In this document: positions 4,310 to 42,621 of the stretch, one piece after another | Layout of the letters: each line of letters starts with the position of its first letter | Position numbering within the stretch: position 1 is the first letter of the stretch | Assembly: GCF_900101845.1 (NCBI RefSeq) | Contig: NZ_FNAM01000001.1 | Coordinates: forward strand, 1 to 64,000 | DNA from: Sporomusa acidovorans | GTDB taxonomy: Bacteria > Bacillota > Negativicutes > Sporomusales > Sporomusaceae | Direction: 5' to 3' | DNA: 64,000 bases | Translations under genes and position numbers: made by a program | The notes under the pieces: model-generated | The model's input: the letters and a program-made list of their open reading frames with translations, nothing else | Databases searched by the model: none | What the model was told of the DNA's origin: nothing

Positions 4310-4818
4310 AAATATTGGGAAGTATGTTGGTTATTACTGCCGGAACATCTATTGGATTCAGTTTAGCCTCACGCTATGTTGAGCGCCCCCGTCAGATACG
4401 CCAGCTAATTAGCTGTTTGTCGGCTTTAAAGTCACACATAAATTACGCGGCAGTACCGCTGCCGGAGGCTTTATCACAATGTACCTGTGGTGTTGCCGGC
4501 CCAGTAGCGGAATTCTTTCATACTATGTCATTATTGCTTGCGAATAACGGCTGGTTGACGCCACAGGCCGCAATGGAGCAAGCTCTTAAAGAATCCAAAC
4601 AGCTTATTCTAAATCAGCCGGAGCGAGAGATTCTTGCCGTATTTAGCGCAAATCTAGGCAGCATGGATCAGGAAGAACAGGTTAAATCACTGGAATTGGT
4701 TCACGAGCAATTAGCCAGGCTTCAGTGTGAGGCGGAGAGACTCTGTGAACAAAACGTCAAAATGTGCCGATATTTGGGCATTTGTGGTGGTTTAGCAGTA
4801 GTCATAATTTTAATATAG
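4300..4818 (+). CDS. spoIIIAB: Stage III sporulation protein AB
   Basis: 172 residues with one membrane helix at each end (about 5-25 and 153-170) and a helical middle containing the family-typical PRQIRQL and MDQEEQVK stretches. SpoIIIAB resembles GspF-type secretion platform proteins and acts in the mother-cell membrane with the AA ATPase. The start overlaps the end of spoIIIAA and follows GAGGTGAAGG. Confidence 0.95.
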   Translation: MWLKILGSMLVITAGTSIGFSLASRYVERPRQIRQLISCLSALKSHINYAAVPLPEALSQCTCGVAGPVAEFFHTMSLLLANNGWLTPQAAMEQALKESKQLILNQPEREILAVFSANLGSMDQEEQVKSLELVHEQLARLQCEAERLCEQNVKMCRYLGICGGLAVVIILI

Positions 4819-4856
4819 TCAGCAATGTTATACGCATAAGGAGAGGAGAGTAGAAT

Positions 4857-5054
4857 ATGGGCTTGGACGTTTTGTTTAAAATTGCCGGAGTCGGTATTTT
4901 AATTTCAGTTATTCATACGGCGCTCAAACAAGCCGGAAAAGAGGATATGGCGCATTTATGTACACTCGCCGGTTTTAGCCTTGTCTTATTATGGGTTGTA
5001 GAATTATTAGGGCGGCTTTTTAACACCGTCCAGGATGTTTTTAAGTTGTTCTAA
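4857..5054 (+). CDS. spoIIIAC: Stage III sporulation protein AC
   Basis: A 65-residue, two-helix membrane protein (about 5-22 and 33-55) joined by a KQAGKEDMA loop characteristic of SpoIIIAC. A minor channel subunit in the outer forespore membrane. A strong AAGGAGAGGAG precedes the ATG. Confidence 0.95.
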   Translation: MGLDVLFKIAGVGILISVIHTALKQAGKEDMAHLCTLAGFSLVLLWVVELLGRLFNTVQDVFKLF

Positions 5055-5069
5055 GGGGTTGTAGACGCC

Positions 5070-5456
5070 ATGGAAATCATCCAAATTATTGGTTTGGGGT
5101 TTGTTGTTACGCTCTTAATTTTAATTATTAAACAACAACGGCCGGAATTAGCTATACAGCTCGGGCTAACACTTTCGGCTATCATTTTTTTAATGGTTCT
5201 CAGCAAGCTTGATGTTGTTCTCGATTTATTCCGGGACTTGGCTGAAAAAGCCAATATCAGTCAGATGTATCTGAATACGATTCTGAAGATTATTGGCATA
5301 GCCTATGTTACTGAATTTGGTGCTCAAGTTTGTCGGGATGCCGGTGAAGGGGCAGTTGCCGGCAAAATTGAATTTGCCGGCAAAATATTGGTCATGGTAT
5401 TGGCAATACCCATTATTGCGTTGGTATTAGATACTATTGTAAGACTCATTCCTTAA
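5070..5456 (+). CDS. spoIIIAD: Stage III sporulation protein AD
   Basis: 128 residues with four likely membrane helices and the family segment around ILKIIGIAYVTEFGAQVCRDAGE (residues 71-93). Paralogous in style to SpoIIIAC; both are small membrane parts of the feeding channel. It follows spoIIIAC by 15 bases with AAGGGG upstream. Confidence 0.95.
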   Translation: MEIIQIIGLGFVVTLLILIIKQQRPELAIQLGLTLSAIIFLMVLSKLDVVLDLFRDLAEKANISQMYLNTILKIIGIAYVTEFGAQVCRDAGEGAVAGKIEFAGKILVMVLAIPIIALVLDTIVRLIP

Positions 5457-5468
5457 GGTGGAATGCAC

Positions 5469-6626
5469 GTGAAAAAAATAATAATAGCATTATTGTTCAT
5501 GTTGTGTAGTAATATTGCTTGGGCAGCAACTGATTCCGGTCCGGAGTTACCTATGGACTTGCTTGATAGTTCATCGCTTAACAATGTTAACCATTTTATT
5601 CAACTCGTTAATACAGAGCTGAATGAGGAGGTTCCGCTTTTAACTGCTTCCACAATGAAAGAGATCGCATCCAAGGGGCTTAACTTTAATTGGCAAAATC
5701 TTAGTACTAAATTTCTATCATACTTTCTAACAGAGTTATCAACCAATCTTCATCTTATGGGTAAATTGCTATTTTTGGCCGTATTATGTGCACTATTACA
5801 GAACTTGCAAAATTCTTTTGAACAATCAGCAATTTCTTTATTAGCTTATAGTGTTTGTTTCATCTTTTTATGTGTCATTGCCTTAAGCGCCTTTTATAAT
5901 GGTTTAACACTTGCCAGAGAAACGGTAAACAATATGGTCGGTTTTATGGAAGCGCTCTTGCCTCTTTTGTTATCACTATTGGCGGGAGTTGGGGCGTTAA
6001 CATCGGCAGCACTGCTTACTCCCCTCATGTTATTGGTTGTCAGCGCAACCAGTGTTATTGTAAAGGACGTTATCTTACCCTTATTGTTTTTAACCGCGCT
6101 GTTAGAATGTGTTAACTATCTGTCAGGCAAATATTCCCTCAGTAATTTAACCGGAGTACTGAAACAAGCCGGCATGGTCATATTGGGGTTAGTTTTAGTC
6201 ATATTTATTGGAATTGTCAGTGTCCAGGGGGTTGCTGGGAGTGTTGCCGATGGCTTGACTTTAAGAACGGCTAAGTATGCGACCGCTACATTCATTCCAG
6301 TTGTAGGCAAAATGTTTTCCGATACTGTGGAACTAGTCATGGGGGCATCTCTCTTATTAAAAAACGCTGTAGGTATTTTTGGTGTATCGGCTATTGCCTT
6401 ACTTTGTGCCTTGCCGCTTATCAAGCTGCTTTCCTTAGCTGCGATTATGAAAATTGTCGGCGCTTTGATTCAGCCTATGGGTGATGAAAAAATGGCAAAA
6501 TGCCTCGATTCTATGGGAAATAATTTATTATTGGTGTTTGGCGCCGTGCTTACGGTGGTATTGATGTTTTTTTTGATTGTTACCATGATTATTGGGGTTG
6601 GCAGCGTTACTATGATGCTTCGCTAG
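5469..6626 (+). CDS. spoIIIAE: Stage III sporulation protein AE
   Basis: Largest membrane subunit of the SpoIIIA channel, about 385 residues. It starts with a signal sequence (VKKIIIALLFMLCSNIAWAA) and has roughly seven further hydrophobic helices from residue 90 to the end. I prefer GTG 5469 over the in-frame ATG at 5463, because AAGGTGG at 5455-5461 is seven bases from the GTG but only one from the ATG. Confidence 0.95.
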   Translation: MKKIIIALLFMLCSNIAWAATDSGPELPMDLLDSSSLNNVNHFIQLVNTELNEEVPLLTASTMKEIASKGLNFNWQNLSTKFLSYFLTELSTNLHLMGKLLFLAVLCALLQNLQNSFEQSAISLLAYSVCFIFLCVIALSAFYNGLTLARETVNNMVGFMEALLPLLLSLLAGVGALTSAALLTPLMLLVVSATSVIVKDVILPLLFLTALLECVNYLSGKYSLSNLTGVLKQAGMVILGLVLVIFIGIVSVQGVAGSVADGLTLRTAKYATATFIPVVGKMFSDTVELVMGASLLLKNAVGIFGVSAIALLCALPLIKLLSLAAIMKIVGALIQPMGDEKMAKCLDSMGNNLLLVFGAVLTVVLMFFLIVTMIIGVGSVTMMLR

Positions 6627-33768: not shown

Positions 33769-33801
33769 TAGCAATATAAAATAAGTAACTAGGGGGTTGT
33801 G

Positions 33802-34140
33802 TTGTTGAAAGTCGATACATATATGAAGCAAGGAGTCCTAATTGTAAAAATTGATGGTGAATTGGATGTTTGTGGAGCTAACGAATTTCGTACTTACGTT
33901 GACGAGGCACTGGATATGACAGGGGCTAAACATATTTTACTGGATATGCAAGCTGTTGGTTTCATTGATAGTTCAGGAGTGGGCGCTATCCTTGGTCGGT
34001 ATAAGCGTATTGCGCAAAACGGAGGTAAGCTGTTTGTTGTGAACCTTGAACCACATAGCAAGCGGATATTCGAATTAGCTGGATTATTGAAAGTGTTGAC
34101 AGTATATCAGTCTGAAGAGCAGGCACTAGAACTATTATAG
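33802..34140 (+). CDS. spoIIAA: Anti-sigma F factor antagonist SpoIIAA
   Basis: About 112 residues, STAS domain. The phosphorylatable serine is in FIDSSGVGAILGRYK. Unphosphorylated SpoIIAA frees SigmaF from SpoIIAB in the forespore. The start is ambiguous: GTG 33799, TTG 33802 and TTG 33805 are consecutive and all lie behind AGGGGG at 33791; the middle one is shown. Confidence 0.93.
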   Translation: MLKVDTYMKQGVLIVKIDGELDVCGANEFRTYVDEALDMTGAKHILLDMQAVGFIDSSGVGAILGRYKRIAQNGGKLFVVNLEPHSKRIFELAGLLKVLTVYQSEEQALELL

Positions 34141-34152
34141 GGAGGGTAGACA

Positions 34153-34599
34153 ATGGGGACGCACATAAAAAATCAAGTAAAGTTATCACTTCTAAGTATC
34201 AACGAAAATGTGAGTTTCGCCAGGGCGGCAGCAGCCGCTTTTTCGGCTCAGGTAGATTTGACAATTACAGACATTGATGAGATTAAGGTAGCTGTTTCAG
34301 AAGCGGTATCGAACGCCGTTATTCATGGCTATGGCGGCAATAATCATAAACAAAATTTTATTGAATTAGTTATGAACTTATATCGTGACAAACTGGAATT
34401 TTTCATTATTGATTTTGGGAAAGGAATTGCCAATATTGAAGAGGCCCGCCAGCCTTCATTTTCTAGCGACCCGGAACGTATGGGGCTAGGGTTTGTTTTT
34501 ATGGATTCTTTCATGGATGAACTGGAGATTATTTCAAAACTGGGGCAGGGTACAACAGTGAAGATGGTTAAATTGCTTGTACCAAGCACAGAGCACTAG
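34153..34599 (+). CDS. spoIIAB: Anti-sigma F factor / kinase SpoIIAB
   Basis: 148 residues, GHKL ATPase fold. N-box EAVSNAVIHGYGG, G1-like IIDFGKGI and G2-like MGLGFVFM are visible. Holds SigmaF inactive and phosphorylates SpoIIAA. Follows spoIIAA by 12 bases behind AGGGAGG. Confidence 0.96.
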   Translation: MGTHIKNQVKLSLLSINENVSFARAAAAAFSAQVDLTITDIDEIKVAVSEAVSNAVIHGYGGNNHKQNFIELVMNLYRDKLEFFIIDFGKGIANIEEARQPSFSSDPERMGLGFVFMDSFMDELEIISKLGQGTTVKMVKLLVPSTEH

Positions 34600-34607
34600 G
34601 TGCCAAT

Positions 34608-35354
34608 ATGCTCACAGAAGAAGAATTTAAAAGTTTGTTAAGCAAGGCACAGTCTCCTGACTTATCCAGCAGTGAGGAAGCCAAAGAACGTATTCTGGAA
34701 GCTAACCTGAATTTGGTGAGAAGCATTGTTCATCGTTTTTCCAACCGTGGCTATGAATGGGATGATTTATTTCAGATCGGTTGTATTGGTCTCTTAAAAG
34801 CCATTGAACGTTTTAATCTTGAATTTAGTGTCAAATTCTCTACTTATGCCGTACCTATGATTATTGGCGAGATTCGCAGATTTATTCGTGATGATAATCC
34901 GGTTAAAGTCAGCCGTCCTTTAAAAGAACTCGCTTATCGGGTTCACAAAACACAGGAAAGATTACAAGGAGCATTAGGCAGGGAGCCAACAATAACTGAA
35001 ATCGCCAGAGAACTTTCACTTGCTCCCCAGGAAATTGTATCTGCCCTGGAAGCCGTTCAACCGCAGCTCTCTTTGTACGAACAAACATTTCAGAGCGACA
35101 GTGGTGATACGATTCATCTATTAGACCAGCTTATGCTGGCAGACGGACAGGATAATAATTATTTTGACAAGTTAGCTTTGCGGGAAGTAATAGCCCGCTT
35201 GCCTGTGAAGGAACGAACTGTTATTTATTTACGTTTTTTTGCCGATAAGACCCAGGCTGAGATTGCCGCATTAATCGGCCTATCGCAAGTGCAGGTATCA
35301 AGAATAGAAAAGCAAGCGTTGAAAATAATTAGAGAATTGCTCCAGACCTCATAA
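34608..35354 (+). CDS. sigF: Forespore sigma factor SigmaF
   Basis: 248 residues, sigma70 family. Region 2 with YEWDDLFQIGCIGLLKAIERF, region 3 about 100-170, and region 4 helix-turn-helix KTQAEIAALIGLSQVQVSRIEK. First compartment-specific sigma factor of the forespore. The ribosome site is weak (TAGGTG), so coupling to spoIIAB is likely. Its last codons overlap a terminator. Confidence 0.97.
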   Translation: MLTEEEFKSLLSKAQSPDLSSSEEAKERILEANLNLVRSIVHRFSNRGYEWDDLFQIGCIGLLKAIERFNLEFSVKFSTYAVPMIIGEIRRFIRDDNPVKVSRPLKELAYRVHKTQERLQGALGREPTITEIARELSLAPQEIVSALEAVQPQLSLYEQTFQSDSGDTIHLLDQLMLADGQDNNYFDKLALREVIARLPVKERTVIYLRFFADKTQAEIAALIGLSQVQVSRIEKQALKIIRELLQTS

Positions 35355-35378
35355 ATGTGATGAGGTCTGGTTTTATTT
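35342..35378 (+). terminator. Terminator overlapping the sigF stop
   Basis: Perfect ten-base stem CCAGACCTCA / TGAGGTCTGG followed by TTTTATTTT; the TAA stop is at the base of the loop. Confidence 0.9.
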
Positions 35379-35425
35379 TATTATCAGCAGTTATTTTGGA
35401 CATAATAAAACCAGAGGTGATAGTA

Positions 35426-35641
35426 ATGGATCGAAGTATTGGTAATGTTAAAGTAAAAGGCATTATTTACCTGATCATACTATTCATGATGGTAGCCGGC
35501 AGTACGGCTGCCTGGCTGTATTTTGGTTCTGATATCCCCAAAAAAGCACCGCTTAGAGCAAAACAAGTTTTTCTTTGGCATAACAATCAGAATAATGCAC
35601 ACACTATCATTGTCAACGATCACATCATTTCAGGGGGGTAA
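35426..35641 (+). CDS. 71-residue single-span membrane protein
   Basis: ATG 35426 sits behind AGAGGTGA. The product has a short cytoplasmic start, one membrane helix (about 13-33) and a hydrophilic tail rich in Asn and His (QVFLWHNNQNNAH). No family recognised. Its stop overlaps the GGGGGG ribosome site of the dodecin-like gene, so the two are likely co-translated. Lies between the sigF and spoVA operons. Confidence 0.6.
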   Translation: MDRSIGNVKVKGIIYLIILFMMVAGSTAAWLYFGSDIPKKAPLRAKQVFLWHNNQNNAHTIIVNDHIISGG

Positions 35642-35645
35642 TAAC

Positions 35646-35846
35646 ATGGTTGTAAAAGTAATTGAACTGGTAGGAACTTCCCGACATAATTGGACAGATG
35701 CGGTGGATAATGCTATTTTAGAAGCTTCTAAAACTGTTGACGACATTCTGGGCGTTGAGGTTACTAATTTTACGGCCAATGTAGGCAATGGGCATATTGC
35801 CGAATACAAAGCTGATGTAAAGATTGCTTTCCAGGTTCACCACTAA
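35646..35846 (+). CDS. Dodecin-family protein without the flavin tryptophan
   Basis: 66 residues, the length of dodecin, a small beta-alpha-beta-beta protein forming hollow dodecamers. It opens VVKVIELVGTSRHNWTDAVDNAI, and ends AEYKADVKIAFQVHH, both typical. Flavin-binding dodecins carry a Trp in a WFEV strand; here it reads ILGVEVTNF, so flavin stacking is unlikely. It may belong to the non-flavin, SecE2-like group. Confidence 0.85.
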   Translation: MVVKVIELVGTSRHNWTDAVDNAILEASKTVDDILGVEVTNFTANVGNGHIAEYKADVKIAFQVHH

Positions 35847-36035: not shown

Positions 36036-36491
36036 TTGTTTAACAGTCAAGCCAGTGATGCTGAACAACAGAAATATCAGGAAAAATTTGATCAATTGAA
36101 ACCCAAAACTCCCATACTGAAAAATATTATATGGGCTTTTATTGTGGGGGGATTAATTTGTGTTTTAGGACAATTTTTTCTTAATTATTTTGTAAGTCTG
36201 GGATTAAGTAAGAACGAGGCTGGTGGCCCTACTTCCCTAGCACTGATCTTTTTAAGTGAATTTTTTACCGGCTTGGGTGTCTACGACGAGCTGGGACGCA
36301 AGGCAGGAGCTGGATCAATAGTACCAATTACTGGCTTTGCCAACTCCGTTGTCGCTCCGGCTATGGAGTTTAAGCGCGAAGGATATGTTTTCGGGATAGG
36401 GGCTAAAATGTTTACTATAGCCGGTCCGGTCCTGGTATATGGTATTTCAACAGCTGTACTTATTGGTTTTATTTATTGGTTACGTTTATAA
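36036..36491 (+). CDS. spoVAC: Stage V sporulation protein AC
   Basis: 151 residues with a hydrophilic N-terminus (1-30) and about three to four membrane helices from IIWAFIVGGLICVLGQFF onward. SpoVAC is a membrane channel part for dipicolinate uptake into the forespore and its release at germination; the Bacillus protein behaves as a mechanosensitive channel. TTG start behind TTGGAGGTGG. It shares the FIVGGLICVLGQ segment with SpoVAE below. Confidence 0.95.
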   Translation: MFNSQASDAEQQKYQEKFDQLKPKTPILKNIIWAFIVGGLICVLGQFFLNYFVSLGLSKNEAGGPTSLALIFLSEFFTGLGVYDELGRKAGAGSIVPITGFANSVVAPAMEFKREGYVFGIGAKMFTIAGPVLVYGISTAVLIGFIYWLRL

Positions 36492-36506: not shown

Positions 36507-37514
36507 ATGAATAAAAAAAAATGCGGACAGCAAAGTATTCTTTTTGCGTCGCCGCCAGTCATAACCAGTACGGCCAATATTGTGGGGCCAATGGAAGGAG
36601 ATGGGCTTCTAACTGAGTTCTATGACCGGATTCTTGAAGATAACCTTGATAATAATTCCAGTTGGGAAAAATGTGAGTCCAGCATGATGGAATGGGCGAT
36701 AAAAACAGCAATAACTAGAGAAAATAGTGCGACAAATGATATTGATTATGTTTTGGCAGGCGACTTACTTAACCAGCTAATGAGTACGCATTTTGCGGTC
36801 AGGGGAATTGGTCGTCCTTTTTTAGGCCTGTATGGCGCATGCTCAACACTGGCAGAAGGCATGTTAATCGGCTCTACACTTATTGATGGGGGATTTGCCA
36901 GTAAAATCGTTACCGCTGTTTCCAGTCACCATGATACTGCGGAACGGCAGTATCGTTTTCCTACCGAGCAGGGCGTCCAGCGGCCGATGGTATCGCAATG
37001 GACGGTGACTGGCTCGGGTGCCGTAGTCATCTCTTCTGCCGGAAACGGTCCACGAATTACTGCGGCAACAGTGGGAAAAATAGTAGATATAGGAATGCAG
37101 GATCCTAACGCTATGGGGGCAGCGATGGCACCGGCTGCTGCCGATACGTTATGGCATCATTTTGAAGATACGGGTCGGCAGCCTAATTATTATGACATGA
37201 TTTATACCGGCGATTTAGGAAGCGTCGGTAAAGCTTTGGTTATTGAATTATTCAAAGAAAAGAATATTGATTTGTCTACAAATTATGAAGATTGTGGTTG
37301 TATGATATTCCGGGAAGACCAGGACGCTCACGCCGGTGCCAGCGGTTGCGCCAGCTCAGGTATAGTCTTCACAGGCTATATTTACCAACTGCTTATGCAG
37401 CAAAAACTTCGTAAGATTTTGCTGGTAGGTACGGGTAGTTTGCATAGTACGACATCTTATCAACAAAAAGAATCCATTCCCTGCATTGCGCATGCTGTAG
37501 CAGTGGAAGGGTAA
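36507..37514 (+). CDS. spoVAD: Stage V sporulation protein AD
   Basis: 335 residues with a thiolase/ketoacyl-synthase-like fold, soluble, and known in Bacillus to bind dipicolinate directly. Visible: ASPPVITSTANIVGPMEGDG start, GLYGACSTLAEGM around the position of the thiolase cysteine, and HAGASGCASSG. GAGAGGGGG upstream of the ATG. Key member of the operon. Confidence 0.96.
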   Translation: MNKKKCGQQSILFASPPVITSTANIVGPMEGDGLLTEFYDRILEDNLDNNSSWEKCESSMMEWAIKTAITRENSATNDIDYVLAGDLLNQLMSTHFAVRGIGRPFLGLYGACSTLAEGMLIGSTLIDGGFASKIVTAVSSHHDTAERQYRFPTEQGVQRPMVSQWTVTGSGAVVISSAGNGPRITAATVGKIVDIGMQDPNAMGAAMAPAAADTLWHHFEDTGRQPNYYDMIYTGDLGSVGKALVIELFKEKNIDLSTNYEDCGCMIFREDQDAHAGASGCASSGIVFTGYIYQLLMQQKLRKILLVGTGSLHSTTSYQQKESIPCIAHAVAVEG

Positions 37515-37529: not shown

Positions 37530-37883
37530 TTGCAGGCATATCTAATGGCTTTTGTTATCGGTGGGTTAATTTGCGTACTTGGACAACTACTCATGGATTT
37601 AACCCCGCTTACACCTGCTCACGTGTTGGTGCTTTTTGTTGTTTTAGGTGGTGTTTTAAGTGGCTTAGGGTGGTACCAGCCACTTATTGATATTGGTGGT
37701 GCCGGGGCAACTGTTCCCCTCCCCGGTTTTGGACATTCTTTAGTCTCCGGCACTATCGAGGAAATAAATAAAGTAGGATTCTGGGGGATTTTTAGTGGAG
37801 GCTTTAAAGCTACTGCAACAGGAGTTACAGCTGCGGTATTTTTTGGCCTTGTAATCGCGATAGTATTTAATCCAAAAGGGTAG
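37530..37883 (+). CDS. spoVAE: Stage V sporulation protein AE (SpoVAEB type)
   Basis: 117 residues, about four membrane helices, with VIGGLICVLGQLLMD and GAGATVPLPGFGHSLVSG typical of the SpoVAC/SpoVAEB family. Paralog of SpoVAC. TTG start behind AAAGGAGGAG. Confidence 0.94.
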   Translation: MQAYLMAFVIGGLICVLGQLLMDLTPLTPAHVLVLFVVLGGVLSGLGWYQPLIDIGGAGATVPLPGFGHSLVSGTIEEINKVGFWGIFSGGFKATATGVTAAVFFGLVIAIVFNPKG

Positions 37884-37889
37884 GTAAAA

Positions 37890-38276
37890 ATGTTAGCAAT
37901 AGATATTGTCGGCTTACTGATATCGATATGTTTAGTTAGTATACGATACCCCCATTATGCTTTTATGGCTGCCATGGTCAATGTTCTGGGGCAAATTATT
38001 ACCGCTGTTTTATTTACAGGCAATGTTGAAAAATTTATTACGGCAGGAGTTTTTAGTTCAGCCGAAGTTACAAACTTAGGCGGATTAAAGACGATCCTTT
38101 TTACTTTTAGTGGACCTATAACTAATTTTTTACTTAGTAAAATGGCGGGTGGGGTAGAATTTGTGAGCACAGCTAATATAGTCAACCCATTTGCGGTTTT
38201 AAAACATCCTTTAGCTGTAATAAATTTAAGATTTGCGGTAGTCTCATTCCTACTAGGTTTATGCCAACTTCTTTAA
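37890..38276 (+). CDS. Unidentified membrane protein in the spoVA operon
   Basis: 128 residues with about four hydrophobic segments (roughly 4-18, 25-43, 66-82, 108-126). It starts MLAIDIVGLLISICLVSIR and lacks the SpoVAC/AE motif GGLICVLGQ. It does not resemble SpoVAA or SpoVAB as I know them. ATG behind AGGGTAGG, six bases after spoVAE, so certainly in the same operon. A role in the spore inner-membrane channel is inferred from location only. Confidence 0.75.
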   Translation: MLAIDIVGLLISICLVSIRYPHYAFMAAMVNVLGQIITAVLFTGNVEKFITAGVFSSAEVTNLGGLKTILFTFSGPITNFLLSKMAGGVEFVSTANIVNPFAVLKHPLAVINLRFAVVSFLLGLCQLL

Positions 38277-38339
38277 TACGAATAGAAAGAAGAAATCACT
38301 AAGAAGTCGATTTGCTTATAAATTATGGGGTGATTTAAT

Positions 38340-38906
38340 ATGCCAAAACGAGTTTCAAGTAAAATTGCCAGTTATATTAAGCCTAATCAATTACAACCAC
38401 AATCGACTAATTCGCAGGGAGTTGTAGACTTATTACAAAAAATAAATCAAAAACTGGAAAATCTGCAAAATTCTCTCGTTACAGGTAATTCAGATAATCA
38501 GTCACGACAAGAAATTCAGCCCCCAATTTACCAATCGCAACAAAAGGAAGGACTAAACGCTCCACAATCAGACGCCGATGTATCGCAAGAATTAAGAAAC
38601 TTGTTTAGCTCTTTACTCACACAAGAAAAACAGCAAAACACGCTGCCAAACAATGGGAATATGGAGCAACAGAATTTGGCGCAAAACCAGAGCCAGCAAC
38701 AAAATCAAGCGGCAGAGCAGGGGAATAATCAAAATAACTCTATTACTGTGCAAACGGCTGCACAAGTATTGGCGCAAGCACAATATGAGCTTTCTAATGA
38801 GTTAGAAGCGAGCCTGCAAAAGCTGAAACAGGTAATCAGCGAGAGTGAAAAAATTGCCAACAAAATAAGTAATTTGTTAGGAGAAGAAAATAACCAGCAG
38901 CAGTGA
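38340..38906 (+). CDS. Gln/Asn-rich coiled-coil protein in the spoVA operon
   Basis: 188 residues, no membrane helix, extremely rich in Gln and Asn, especially from about 95 to 135. Heptad-like stretches (VVDLLQKINQKLENLQNSL near 28-46 and LSNELEASLQKLKQVISESEK near 147-170) suggest coiled coils flanking a low-complexity centre. No family recognised. ATG behind GGGGTGA and the stop is two bases before the spoVAEA frame opens. Possibly a spore structural or scaffold protein; unproven. Confidence 0.75.
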   Translation: MPKRVSSKIASYIKPNQLQPQSTNSQGVVDLLQKINQKLENLQNSLVTGNSDNQSRQEIQPPIYQSQQKEGLNAPQSDADVSQELRNLFSSLLTQEKQQNTLPNNGNMEQQNLAQNQSQQQNQAAEQGNNQNNSITVQTAAQVLAQAQYELSNELEASLQKLKQVISESEKIANKISNLLGEENNQQQ

Positions 38907-38916
38907 GGTGGATAAG

Positions 38917-39525
38917 TTGGGCAATGATACCGCATCTGACAAAAAAATTCGCGTTATTCTTGTTACCGATGGTGATAAGGTAGCTCAGCAAGCAGTTGAA
39001 ACTATTGCTTCTTCATTAAGGTTAAGGTGTATTTCGGCTTCCGCAGGCAATCCAACCCCTATTAGCGGGAAAAAAATTGTTGAATTATTAAAAACTGTGC
39101 CTTATGATCCAGTACTGGTTATGTTTGACGATAAAGGACGTTGCGAAAAAGCGGCAGGCGAGCGGGCACTTGAATATGTCGCCAATCACCCTGACATTGA
39201 AGTACTTGGGGCTATAGCCGTGGCGTCTAATACTACAGGTATCACAGGAGTTCACGCAGATGCATGTATTGATTGTCAAGGGCATGTCATAGACATGTCT
39301 GTTGATAAAAAAGGGGAAATTAAGAACAACAACAATTGCGACTGTAAGCCGGTAATAACCGGTGATACGGTTGATGTTCTCAATGATGTTAACATACCTG
39401 TTATTATCGGTGTAGGTGATATCGGGAAAATGGATAAACATGATGACTTAAGTCGTGGGGCACCCATTACCAAAAGGGCAATAGAAGAGATATTGAAACG
39501 GAGTGGTGTGACTTATGGCAAATGA
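38917..39525 (+). CDS. spoVAEA: Stage V sporulation protein AEA
   Basis: 202 residues of the SpoVAEA family: RVILVTDGDKVAQQA start, ISASAGNPTPISGKKIVELL, PVLVMFDDKGR, EVLGAIAVASNT and PVIIGVGDIGKMDKHDDLSRG. A soluble protein of the dipicolinate transport operon with uncertain biochemical role. TTG 38917 is five bases behind GAGGTGG; GTG 38908 would have no site. Overlaps spoVAF by 11 bases. Confidence 0.93.
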   Translation: MGNDTASDKKIRVILVTDGDKVAQQAVETIASSLRLRCISASAGNPTPISGKKIVELLKTVPYDPVLVMFDDKGRCEKAAGERALEYVANHPDIEVLGAIAVASNTTGITGVHADACIDCQGHVIDMSVDKKGEIKNNNNCDCKPVITGDTVDVLNDVNIPVIIGVGDIGKMDKHDDLSRGAPITKRAIEEILKRSGVTYGK

Positions 39526-41029
39526 AAAAACAATTGCCAAAGAACTTGATACTAATATAAATTATATTAAAGATAAGCTTGGAGTTGGCGAAAGTTTTGA
39601 TATCATATTTCGTGAATATAAAGTAGGCCGGAAACGCGCGGCTTCATTTTCCATCAACGGTATGACCAATGACGTTGTTTTAGCCAATGTGTTGGAAGAA
39701 TTGACTGCCTATAACCAGGAAGAGTTATCCATAAATACTATGGAAAAGCTTTTTTATTCACGCGCAACCCACTCGCAAGTCAAATTAGTAGAAAATATGA
39801 ATGATGCGATAACCAGCCTTTTGTCAGGTGAAATGCTTTTCTTTGTGGAAGGTTCAGATCAAGTAATGGTTATCGATGCTCGTTCTTATCCTATCCGTAC
39901 TCCTGCCGAATCTAATATTGAAAAGGTTACAAGAGGATCACGCGATTCTTTTGTTGAAACAATTGTATTTAATACGGCATTAATCCGCAGACGATTACGC
40001 GATCCTAACCTTAGGTTTGAAATAATAAAGGTTGGTACACGTTCGCAATGCGATATTGCAATTTGTTATATTAAAGATATTACGAATACGCAATTGATTG
40101 CCACTGTTAAAGATAGGCTTAATAACATTAATATTGACGGTGTACCTATGGCAGAAAAGGCAATCGAAGAGTATATTGTCAAGGGAAGCAAATGGAATCC
40201 TTTACCGCGAGTACGCTATACAGAACGCCCGGATGTAGCGGCAGTACACCTGCTAGAGGGGCATGTCTGCATAATTGTCGATACTTCACCTAACATTATG
40301 ATTCTGCCAACTACCTTGTGGCATCATGTCCAACATGTTGAAGAATTTCACCAGAATGTAATTATCGGTTCCTATTTGCGATTAATTAGGCTGGCAGGTG
40401 TATTATTGTCATTAATTTTACCGCCGCTCTGGCTGGCAATGGTATTAAACCGTCATTTATTGCCTGAATCGTTGGCTTTTCTTGGCCCGAGGGATCCGGG
40501 AATTATACCTATCGGTATCCAATTCCTTTTGGCCGAATTTGGAGTTGAATTAGTTAGAATGGCTACCGTACACGTTCCCACAGCACAATCCACTGCTCTT
40601 GGTTTTATTGGGGCCTTTATGCTGGGCGATATAGCTACTAAAGTAGGGTTGTTTGGTAATGAAACTATATTTTACACTGCGGTAGCTGCTGTGGGTGCTT
40701 TTGCCACACCCAGCATGGAATTTGCGATGGCAATCCGGCTCTTCCGGGCCATTATTATTGTCCTTGTCATGTTTTTTAAACTGCCGGGTTTGGCAGGTGG
40801 TTTAGCAGGAGTATTTTTATTGATGCTTACAACAAAATCGTTTAATATTCCTTATTTATGGCCAGCGTTGCCCTTTAATTTCAGTGCAATGAAAGATGTC
40901 TTATTTCGTCTGCCTATTCCTAATAAAATTTTGCGGCCTGCCGTACTCAAGCCTCAAGATCAGGACCGGCTTGAAAGTGGCGGTGTGCAAGAAAACGATA
41001 CTAAAAACAAAAAAAATAAAGAGAAATAA
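39515..41029 (+). CDS. spoVAF: SpoVAF, GerA-family spore germination protein
   Basis: 504 residues. Cytoplasmic N-terminal domain (1-260), then about five membrane helices (290-460) including ILPPLWLAMV and LPGLAGGLAGVFLLML, and a hydrophilic, Lys/Asn-rich tail. Homologous to the A subunits of germinant receptors. SpoVAF closes the spoVA operon and in Bacillus modulates germination. Confidence 0.94.
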   Translation: MANEKTIAKELDTNINYIKDKLGVGESFDIIFREYKVGRKRAASFSINGMTNDVVLANVLEELTAYNQEELSINTMEKLFYSRATHSQVKLVENMNDAITSLLSGEMLFFVEGSDQVMVIDARSYPIRTPAESNIEKVTRGSRDSFVETIVFNTALIRRRLRDPNLRFEIIKVGTRSQCDIAICYIKDITNTQLIATVKDRLNNINIDGVPMAEKAIEEYIVKGSKWNPLPRVRYTERPDVAAVHLLEGHVCIIVDTSPNIMILPTTLWHHVQHVEEFHQNVIIGSYLRLIRLAGVLLSLILPPLWLAMVLNRHLLPESLAFLGPRDPGIIPIGIQFLLAEFGVELVRMATVHVPTAQSTALGFIGAFMLGDIATKVGLFGNETIFYTAVAAVGAFATPSMEFAMAIRLFRAIIIVLVMFFKLPGLAGGLAGVFLLMLTTKSFNIPYLWPALPFNFSAMKDVLFRLPIPNKILRPAVLKPQDQDRLESGGVQENDTKNKKNKEK

Positions 41030-42000: not shown

Positions 42001-42621
42001 TTGTTTGGTTTTGACGCCGATATGATTTTTCGGATTCCGGCTCTTTTAATTGCACTTACTGTACACGAATATGCTCACGCTAAAGCTGCTGTCGCTTTAG
42101 GTGATCCTACACCAAGATTTATGGGGCGCTTAACGCTTAATCCAATTGCTCACTTAGATCCGTTAGGCCTTCTCATGTTGTGGCTATTCAAATTTGGCTG
42201 GGCAAAACCAGTACCTATCAATCCCAGCTATTTTAAAAATTATCGCCAGGGAATGTTATTTGTAGCCCTGGCAGGACCGCTGTCAAATATGTTGCTAGCC
42301 CTTTTAACAGCTTTTCTTATTGTGATTTTGGCTAAGATGCAGCTTTTAGGAGGAGAATGGATTAAGGTTTTGCAGTTGACCTATAGCTATAATATTCTTT
42401 TGGCTATTTTTAATTTGGTGCCAATACCGCCGCTAGATGGTTCCAAAATACTTTCCAGCATACTTCCCGGGCAACAGGGACGCATATTTGAGCAAATGGA
42501 ACAGTTTGGCCCGTTTATATTAATGGCACTTGTTTATATTGGGGTTATTGGTATGATTACGTATCCATTGGAAAGAGGCCTAGCCTATGTGATTAATACA
42601 ATAGTTATGACAATTTTGTAA
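42001..42621 (+). CDS. Site-2 protease family (M50) membrane metallopeptidase
   Basis: 206 residues, about five membrane helices. Zinc-binding HEYAH at residues 22-26 and the third-ligand motif FNLVPIPPLDGSK. Short YwhC/FtsEX-independent S2P type without PDZ domain, likely cleaving membrane substrates in the bilayer. TTG start behind AAGGAGG. Substrate unknown; it lies directly upstream of trpS. Confidence 0.9.
   Translation: MFGFDADMIFRIPALLIALTVHEYAHAKAAVALGDPTPRFMGRLTLNPIAHLDPLGLLMLWLFKFGWAKPVPINPSYFKNYRQGMLFVALAGPLSNMLLALLTAFLIVILAKMQLLGGEWIKVLQLTYSYNILLAIFNLVPIPPLDGSKILSSILPGQQGRIFEQMEQFGPFILMALVYIGVIGMITYPLERGLAYVINTIVMTIL

Follow-up and report, generated by a model that had tools for sequence, protein, structure and literature searches.

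The spoVA operon of Sporomusa acidovorans, as found in the first 64,000 nucleotides of contig NZ_FNAM01000001.1 (RefSeq assembly GCF_900101845.1; this whole stretch is hereafter called the window), carries two additional open reading frames (ORFs), ORF1 and ORF2, between spoVAE and spoVAEA. Profile comparisons and structure prediction support the view that the ORF1 family is made up of short membrane proteins that go back to the core membrane domain of a site-2 protease of the SpoIVFB type, the catalytic residues of which would have been lost. The boldest reading of these data, which we entertain tentatively (probability roughly 0.4), is that a dead, shortened site-2 protease may have been recruited as a subunit or gate of the dipicolinate channel, in the Negativicutes and in several other Bacillota lineages. 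If this is true, an intramembrane pseudoprotease would be used as a channel part.

The aligned family comprised 34 of the 39 distinct ORF1 sequences, near-identical ones and a shortened copy (genome G011) having been left out. In many members HExGR is found in helix 2 and a short hairpin is followed by FG, while helix 3 contains SGPLANY and helix 4 VINLRLA. SpoIVFB-like proteases encoded in these genomes show, in the same order, HExxH, LPFGG, AGPLAS and VNLMLAxFNLLPALPLDGG, or close variants. ORF1 appears to resemble SpoIVFB and other site-2 proteases (family M50; PDB 8vjl/8vjm, 3b4r and 9j82) in helix order, in the HExG stretch of helix 2, in the FG hairpin, in the GPxxN-like stretch of helix 3 and in the VxNLxLA-like start of helix 4, whereas it differs in its length of about 128 amino acids, in the replacement of the second His, in the missing Asp ligand and in its weak E-values against the Pfam M50 models. 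Alignment of the ORF1 profile to a SpoIVFB-like profile with hhalign scored 32.8 (probability 39%, single-comparison E = 3e-4); the best of 150 block shuffles reached 22.7, and reversed controls 13.6 and 16.8. Over a set of 3,369 ORFs, the ORF1 profile gave 58 matches at E<1e-6, all from ORF1 loci and none with HExxH; these were followed by one weaker family member and then by 11 matches, all of them HExxH proteases. Conversely, the SpoIVFB-like profile matched 72 HExxH proteins (E up to 0.02), and among the ORFs without HExxH its first 15 matches were all ORF1 proteins. This set is no random background: M50 searches contributed to it, and the ORF1 profile itself had brought in four of the 11 proteases (L191-L194). 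Two tests free of any pre-chosen comparison set gave a similar picture: in a profile search of all PDB sequences, four of the five matches at E<=10 were SpoIVFB or RseP, with SpoIVFB the best, and in a scan of the 34 members with the 24,736 Pfam models, Peptidase_M50B and Peptidase_M50 came up most often. The structure predicted for ORF1 from 15 sequences (predicted local distance difference test score, pLDDT, 80; predicted template modelling score 0.73) had site-2 proteases as its four best matches in VIA-align, the fourth tied with unrelated chains, a result that bears only on the fold families in the VIA-align list; Foldseek ranked MjS2P second, without significance. As judged from sequence profiles, ORF1 is thus related to the M50 family, and the two-way ranking, the PDB-wide search, the Pfam scan, the retrieval of PF02163 proteins by the ORF1 profile, the shuffle control and the predicted fold together make common descent with the site-2 proteases of the SpoIVFB type very probable.

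Several results weigh against this relationship. Single E-values were weak in both the PDB-wide search and the Pfam scan, the best for a Pfam M50 model being 5.3e-4, which judged by E-value is under the curated cut-offs. Adding 20 members of other Bacillota to the ORF1 alignment weakened the SpoIVFB match (score 23.5, probability 4.5%), and the ORF1 profile found no M50 protein in the source genome at E<=10.

The second zinc-binding His is absent from all 34 aligned members (18 have Arg there), and none has an Asp in its last 25 residues, the chain ending before the NLLPALPLDGG stretch. The latter, as seen here in the SpoIVFB-like proteases, we take to be the M50 third-ligand motif NxxPxxxxDG. 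Of the first ligand pair, H is kept in 27 members and E in 17, giving HE in 16 and HD in nine; the window ORF1 reads VNVLGQ at the motif, and the HE pair is gone in the Sporomusa sequences too. Neither the HExxH motif nor the Asp ligand of active M50 enzymes is therefore present in ORF1, and with the second His and the Asp lacking in 34 of 34 members the protein should, on its residues, be a pseudoprotease. The ligand residues led us to reject ORF1 as an active protease, and a metalloprotease still working with an altered metal site is extremely improbable: the 16 members with HE and the nine with HD would be in its favour, yet the second His and the Asp ligand are each missing throughout, and the window protein is without HE as well. 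Eight columns are invariant in the 34-member Negativicutes alignment (M1, D5, R19, Y20, G53, F55, P100 and R114), and since none of them is a zinc ligand, selection would appear to act on something other than catalysis. If ORF1 is what its residues suggest, it would be a bacterial pseudoprotease of the site-2 class and a counterpart to plant EGY3, which an excerpt of a 2022 paper (PMC9355673) calls the sole pseudoenzyme homologous to the site-2 protease family. Both are site-2 protease relatives predicted to be inactive; EGY3, however, belongs to the chloroplast, is by the account of that paper confined to plants as far as identified, and has no link to spores.

As the initial annotation had proposed, ORF1 and ORF2 lie between spoVAE and spoVAEA. 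Neither is named by Pfam or NCBIfam, whereas the flanking spoVA genes all are. The features of the locus are the following.

33799..35354, plus strand: spoIIAA, spoIIAB and sigF, upstream of the spoVA genes, with STAS, HATPase and sigma-70 domains; named by order and domains
36036..36491, plus strand: spoVAC, dipicolinate channel membrane subunit by homology (Pfam PF03862, TIGR02838)
36507..37514, plus strand: spoVAD, channel plug by homology (Pfam PF07451, TIGR02845)
37530..37883, plus strand: spoVAE(b), channel membrane subunit by homology (TIGR02839)
37890..38276, plus strand: ORF1, 128 amino acids, four-helix membrane protein, putative degenerate relative of M50 site-2 proteases
38340..38906, plus strand: ORF2, 188 amino acids, Gln/Asn-rich and helical, with a conserved C-terminal helix (residues 131-186)
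38908..39525, plus strand: spoVAEA (spoVAEa; Pfam PF14097, NF052647)
39515..41029, plus strand: spoVAF, GerA family (Pfam PF03323), with orthologues at the same place; ion channel partner of FigP in Bacillus

The plus-strand order is spoIIAA, spoIIAB, sigF, a small ORF, a dodecin gene, spoVAC, spoVAD, spoVAE, ORF1, ORF2, spoVAEA and spoVAF. The tight spacing ascribed to the pair holds for the gaps of 6 nt between spoVAE and ORF1 and 1 nt between ORF2 and spoVAEA, and fails for the 63 nt between ORF1 and ORF2. Good ribosome sites had also been noted, and a G-rich stretch does precede each of the two start codons. The four membrane spans attributed to ORF1 are borne out by helices predicted at residues 2-16, 21-43, 66-85 and 107-127, and ORF2, described as a low-complexity coiled-coil protein, fits that description with 33.0% Gln+Asn (15-34% over 34 family members) and three predicted helices. 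The reported absence of spoVAA and spoVAB agrees with a tBLASTn search of the window (one query each), which gave no match, a search that divergent copies could escape. This absence is little informative, since in the available part of a survey (PMC3533761) both are among the less widespread sporulation genes.

Compared with the Bacillus operon (spoVAA-AB-AC-AD-AEb-AEa-AF), the order of AC, AD, AEb, AEa and AF is identical, and the window differs in having no spoVAA or spoVAB match and in the position of ORF1 and ORF2 between AEb and AEa. ORF1 was considered as a candidate SpoVAA or SpoVAB and rejected, there being no PF12164 or PF13782 match in ORF1 or ORF2; moreover, spoVAA, spoVAB and an ORF1 relative coexist in one genome (locus L196), so that ORF1 is no hidden form of either. 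Identity with FigP (YqhR) was likewise discarded, as neither ORF matched PF11085. The operon type is a known one, and ORF1 and ORF2 match no named Pfam or NCBIfam family meaningfully, the weak M50 signal aside. The literature titles and abstract openings that were surveyed, PMC7985256 among them, mention no extra spoVA genes of Negativicutes and describe neither ORF.

ORF1 is under purifying selection in Sporomusa, as estimated from the comparison of the window sequence with that of S. malonica (nonsynonymous substitution rate dN 0.23; synonymous rate dS about 2, near saturation; dN/dS about 0.12). S. malonica DSM 5090 was the nearest, at 66% identity, of the 14 named records matched by the ORF1 profile. 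Because of this selection, and because homologues lie in the spoVA operon at every ORF1 locus read (see below), ORF1 and ORF2 are genuine genes and not chance ORFs.

Their distribution was followed in 150 whole genomes centred on, and including, the source genome, ORF1 being searched by protein. ORF1 was present in 40 genomes, ORF2 in 44 and SpoVAD, at a threshold of >60 bits, in 54. At E<=0.001 the SpoVAD count was 67; the 13 genomes scoring 17-21 bits, some of them above the Pfam cut-off once neighbouring pieces were added, were dropped as what we presume to be related thiolase-fold enzymes. All genomes with ORF1 or ORF2 fell within the 54 SpoVAD genomes, 37 having both, and neither gene was found in any of the 96 genomes without SpoVAD. 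The annotated pair of an operon-bound membrane protein and a low-complexity helical protein was, in other words, seen solely in SpoVAD genomes, and the occurrence without spoVA genes that would have spoken against the annotation did not turn up. Gene order was conserved as well: in 39 of the 40 ORF1 genomes (G045 was left out) the locus was read, and all 39 loci sit among spoVA genes. In 38 of them spoVAE is directly upstream, the exception being G012, where ORF1 is beside spoVAEA/spoVAF only. A full ORF2 follows in 36 loci; it is partial at a contig end in G089, the contig ends at that point in G018, and none was recognised in G010.

A search with the ORF1 profile was extended to 398 genomes of the phylum Bacillota, 337 of which have SpoVAD. 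There were 26 matches, the source genome included, and the other 25 consisted of 21 short ORF1-type proteins and four M50 proteases (PF02163 above cut-off). Given 26 matches versus 337 SpoVAD genomes, ORF1 is a minority trait outside the Negativicutes at this search sensitivity. For all 21 relatives the next recognised upstream gene was spoVAE (at L189 after a gap of about 470 nt), and spoVAF followed in 10 of the 20 loci that were read further. Among these 10, L197 had only a 103-codon piece matched, and at L206 (genome G479) the spoVAF beside the ORF1 relative (region 4814-6333) is broken up among three frames. None of the 21 loci gave a match to the ORF2 profile. The suggestion that the pair is lineage-specific therefore stands for ORF2 at the spoVA place and falls for ORF1, given its relatives in 21 other Bacillota spoVA operons.

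ORF1 is thus kept in spoVA operons, nearly always adjoining spoVAE. According to the excerpt of PMC11841064, SpoVAC and SpoVAEb form the dipicolinate path in B. subtilis, with SpoVAD as plug and SpoVAA and SpoVAB as accessory proteins, while SpoVAF and FigP make up an ion channel. In B. anthracis, NJ2 is given as the fourth subunit of the spoVA2 complex and its predicted cap (PMC13059800). How dipicolinate moves into and out of the spore is an open question, and the same paper notes that its models still need structural and functional work. With a membrane gene that is conserved beside spoVAE in Negativicutes and other Bacillota, yet unannotated, the existence of further channel subunits can be tested directly. 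We consider it about an even chance that ORF1 is an accessory membrane subunit, or an assembly or gating factor, of the SpoVAC/SpoVAEb channel. Retaining the habit of site-2 proteases, ORF1 might grip a transmembrane helix without cutting it and so serve the channel in the spore inner membrane, in a role comparable to that of NJ2 or of SpoVAA and SpoVAB in Bacillus; ORF2 could be a soluble helical linker or scaffold at this membrane, with either SpoVAEa/SpoVAF or ORF1 as its partner. Like ORF1, NJ2 is the product of an extra gene absent from other spoVA loci, but it is a lipoprotein with binding shown and a predicted place as channel cap (PMC13059800, in part), whereas ORF1 is a four-helix membrane protein and a putative channel binder.

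Losses of ORF1 call for caution. Six of eight congeners (G001-G004, G007 and G008; four read at length) have kept the spoVA genes and ORF2 and lack ORF1, and G061 shows the same combination; in G011, ORF1 is shortened to a 66-residue frame matching over residues 69-128 only. Seven further SpoVAD genomes had neither ORF1 nor ORF2 by these searches (G028, G030, G032, G043, G050, G073 and G085); of these, G073 and G085 show only a second type of spoVA cluster, the stretches read in G050 and G028 stop or start at a contig end, and in G043 a weak ORF2-like frame separates spoVAE from spoVAEA. ORF1 is therefore common but dispensable where congeners lost it yet kept the operon, and the six losses and the shortened G011 copy mean that it is no obligatory channel part. 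The same losses, together with the disappearance of the HE pair in the window lineage, would be expected if ORF1 and ORF2 were functionless relics carried along in the operon. This we regard as improbable in view of the low dN/dS (with its dS near saturation), the eight invariant columns free of zinc ligands and the retention of ORF1 in 40 of the 54 SpoVAD genomes.

Natural rearrangements give hints as to which protein ORF1 works with. Among the Negativicutes there are six (G014, G017, G022, G040, G055 and G064; L247-L253 and L168) in which spoVAD lies elsewhere, in G064 along with spoVAC, and ORF1 stays with spoVAE; in 11 other Bacillota genomes, two of them 86% complete, an ORF1 relative occurs together with spoVAC/D/E and no SpoVAF-like match above 33% identity was found anywhere. 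Both cases favour the channel core. On the other hand, G012 (L246:6641-10262) represents a natural deletion in which the C-D-E block is gone and dodecin-ORF1-ORF2-spoVAEA-spoVAF are left, its only SpoVAD being in the second-type set, an arrangement that favours SpoVAEa/SpoVAF as partner or cooperation with the second-type channel. It would suit a replacement by ORF1 of FigP, the partner with which SpoVAF, itself a product of this operon type, forms the germination ion channel in Bacillus. PF11085 was in fact absent from all 60 genomes around the window (source included, spore formers and others) while a B. subtilis control was positive, ORF1 is close to spoVAEA/spoVAF, and three Negativicutes without ORF1 (G028, G030 and G043) have no SpoVAF-like match above 31% identity either. 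The 11 Bacillota in which ORF1 occurs without SpoVAF speak against this, however, as do the six congeners and G032, which have SpoVAF without ORF1. Weighed over these three natural experiments, the channel accessory comes ahead of a FigP substitute, which appears rather unlikely. A different proposal would make ORF1 a decoy tuning SpoIVFB in pro-sigmaK processing, in the way dead rhomboids tune rhomboids; iRhoms reportedly inhibit rhomboid signalling. SpoIVFB is the best match of the ORF1 profile among solved structures, and the source genome does encode, apart from ORF1, a SpoIVFB-like protein in which HExxH and LDGG are present (L144), which also means that ORF1 does not replace SpoIVFB. What counts against a decoy is the site of action of SpoIVFB, the membrane on the mother-cell side. 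B. subtilis spoVA genes are expressed in the forespore (PMC11841064, excerpt), and the constant spoVA linkage would be unexpected, so that this alternative seems quite improbable.

ORF2, which is confined in the spoVA place to spore-forming Negativicutes, is helical and in part disordered. Its family shares a basic N-terminus, the motifs LIADMAKGF-AQ (missing in the window copy), LLxKINxQLExLQ and ELxxLFSxLL, and some 50 conserved residues at the C-terminal end; the linkers between these parts are rich in Gln, Asn, Ser and Gly and of low confidence in the model. AlphaFold2 placed helices at residues 23-48, 77-98 and 131-186 with a mean pLDDT of 62, only the blocks in 141-180 averaging >=90. 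No membrane span was detected (maximum 19-residue hydropathy 0.31), and comparison with solved structures returned two matches, both unrelated proteins (E 0.55 and 0.62). That ORF2 acts as a scaffold is a guess.

Among ORF2-profile matches in the 398 genomes, those in G157, G203, G241 and G328 fall in very long frames (767 to 1,515 amino acids) and were set aside, and around those in G275, G304, G335, G450 and G466 the roughly 3 kb retrieved contained no spoVA gene; G466 and G304 (3.5 kb retrieved) have relatives of the C-terminal helix. Proteins with the C-terminal helix motif likewise occur at L216, L217 and L223, also in other Bacillota, where the retrieved DNA again lacked spoVA genes; the one at L216 is flanked by genes for a PDZ/Lon-type protease and an amidohydrolase-like protein (named by look). 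Comparison of the C-terminal helix with the two-helix domain of alpha/beta-type small acid-soluble proteins (SASPs) gave 16 aligned columns against a single sequence, from one of 20 fetched loci, and kinship with SASPs was set aside rather than refuted. The one SASP among the ORF2-profile matches in the 398 genomes (L225:710-964, stretch AAQALDQLKFEIANEL) is probably due to chance.

Elsewhere in the source genome lies another spoVA cluster, which is spoVA2-like (L166:5266-8453, contig C28, about 45-48 kb), with genes for DUF1657, a DUF421+DUF1657 fusion (2Duf-like), spoVAC, spoVAD, spoVAE and DUF1657; by eye only, no NJ2-like lipoprotein was noticed among its listed ORFs. In Bacillus, the 2Duf of spoVA2mob reportedly raises wet-heat resistance. 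Upstream of spoVAC, nine regions compared by eye had no common block except a GGAGG-like stretch ahead of the start codon; the one match to a simple sigma-F/G pattern was at the start of spoVAD. The small unnamed ORF and the dodecin gene between sigF and spoVAC (window 35357-35846) recur at 8 and 11, respectively, of 12 loci that include sigF, and a hairpin followed by a T-run lies 3′ of the dodecin gene in the window. Finally, a true M50 protease gene (PF02163) is located at 42001-42621, about 1 kb downstream of spoVAF and before trpS; it occupies the same place behind spoVAF in 11 of 17 loci, the remaining ones ending earlier or placing the M50 gene elsewhere.
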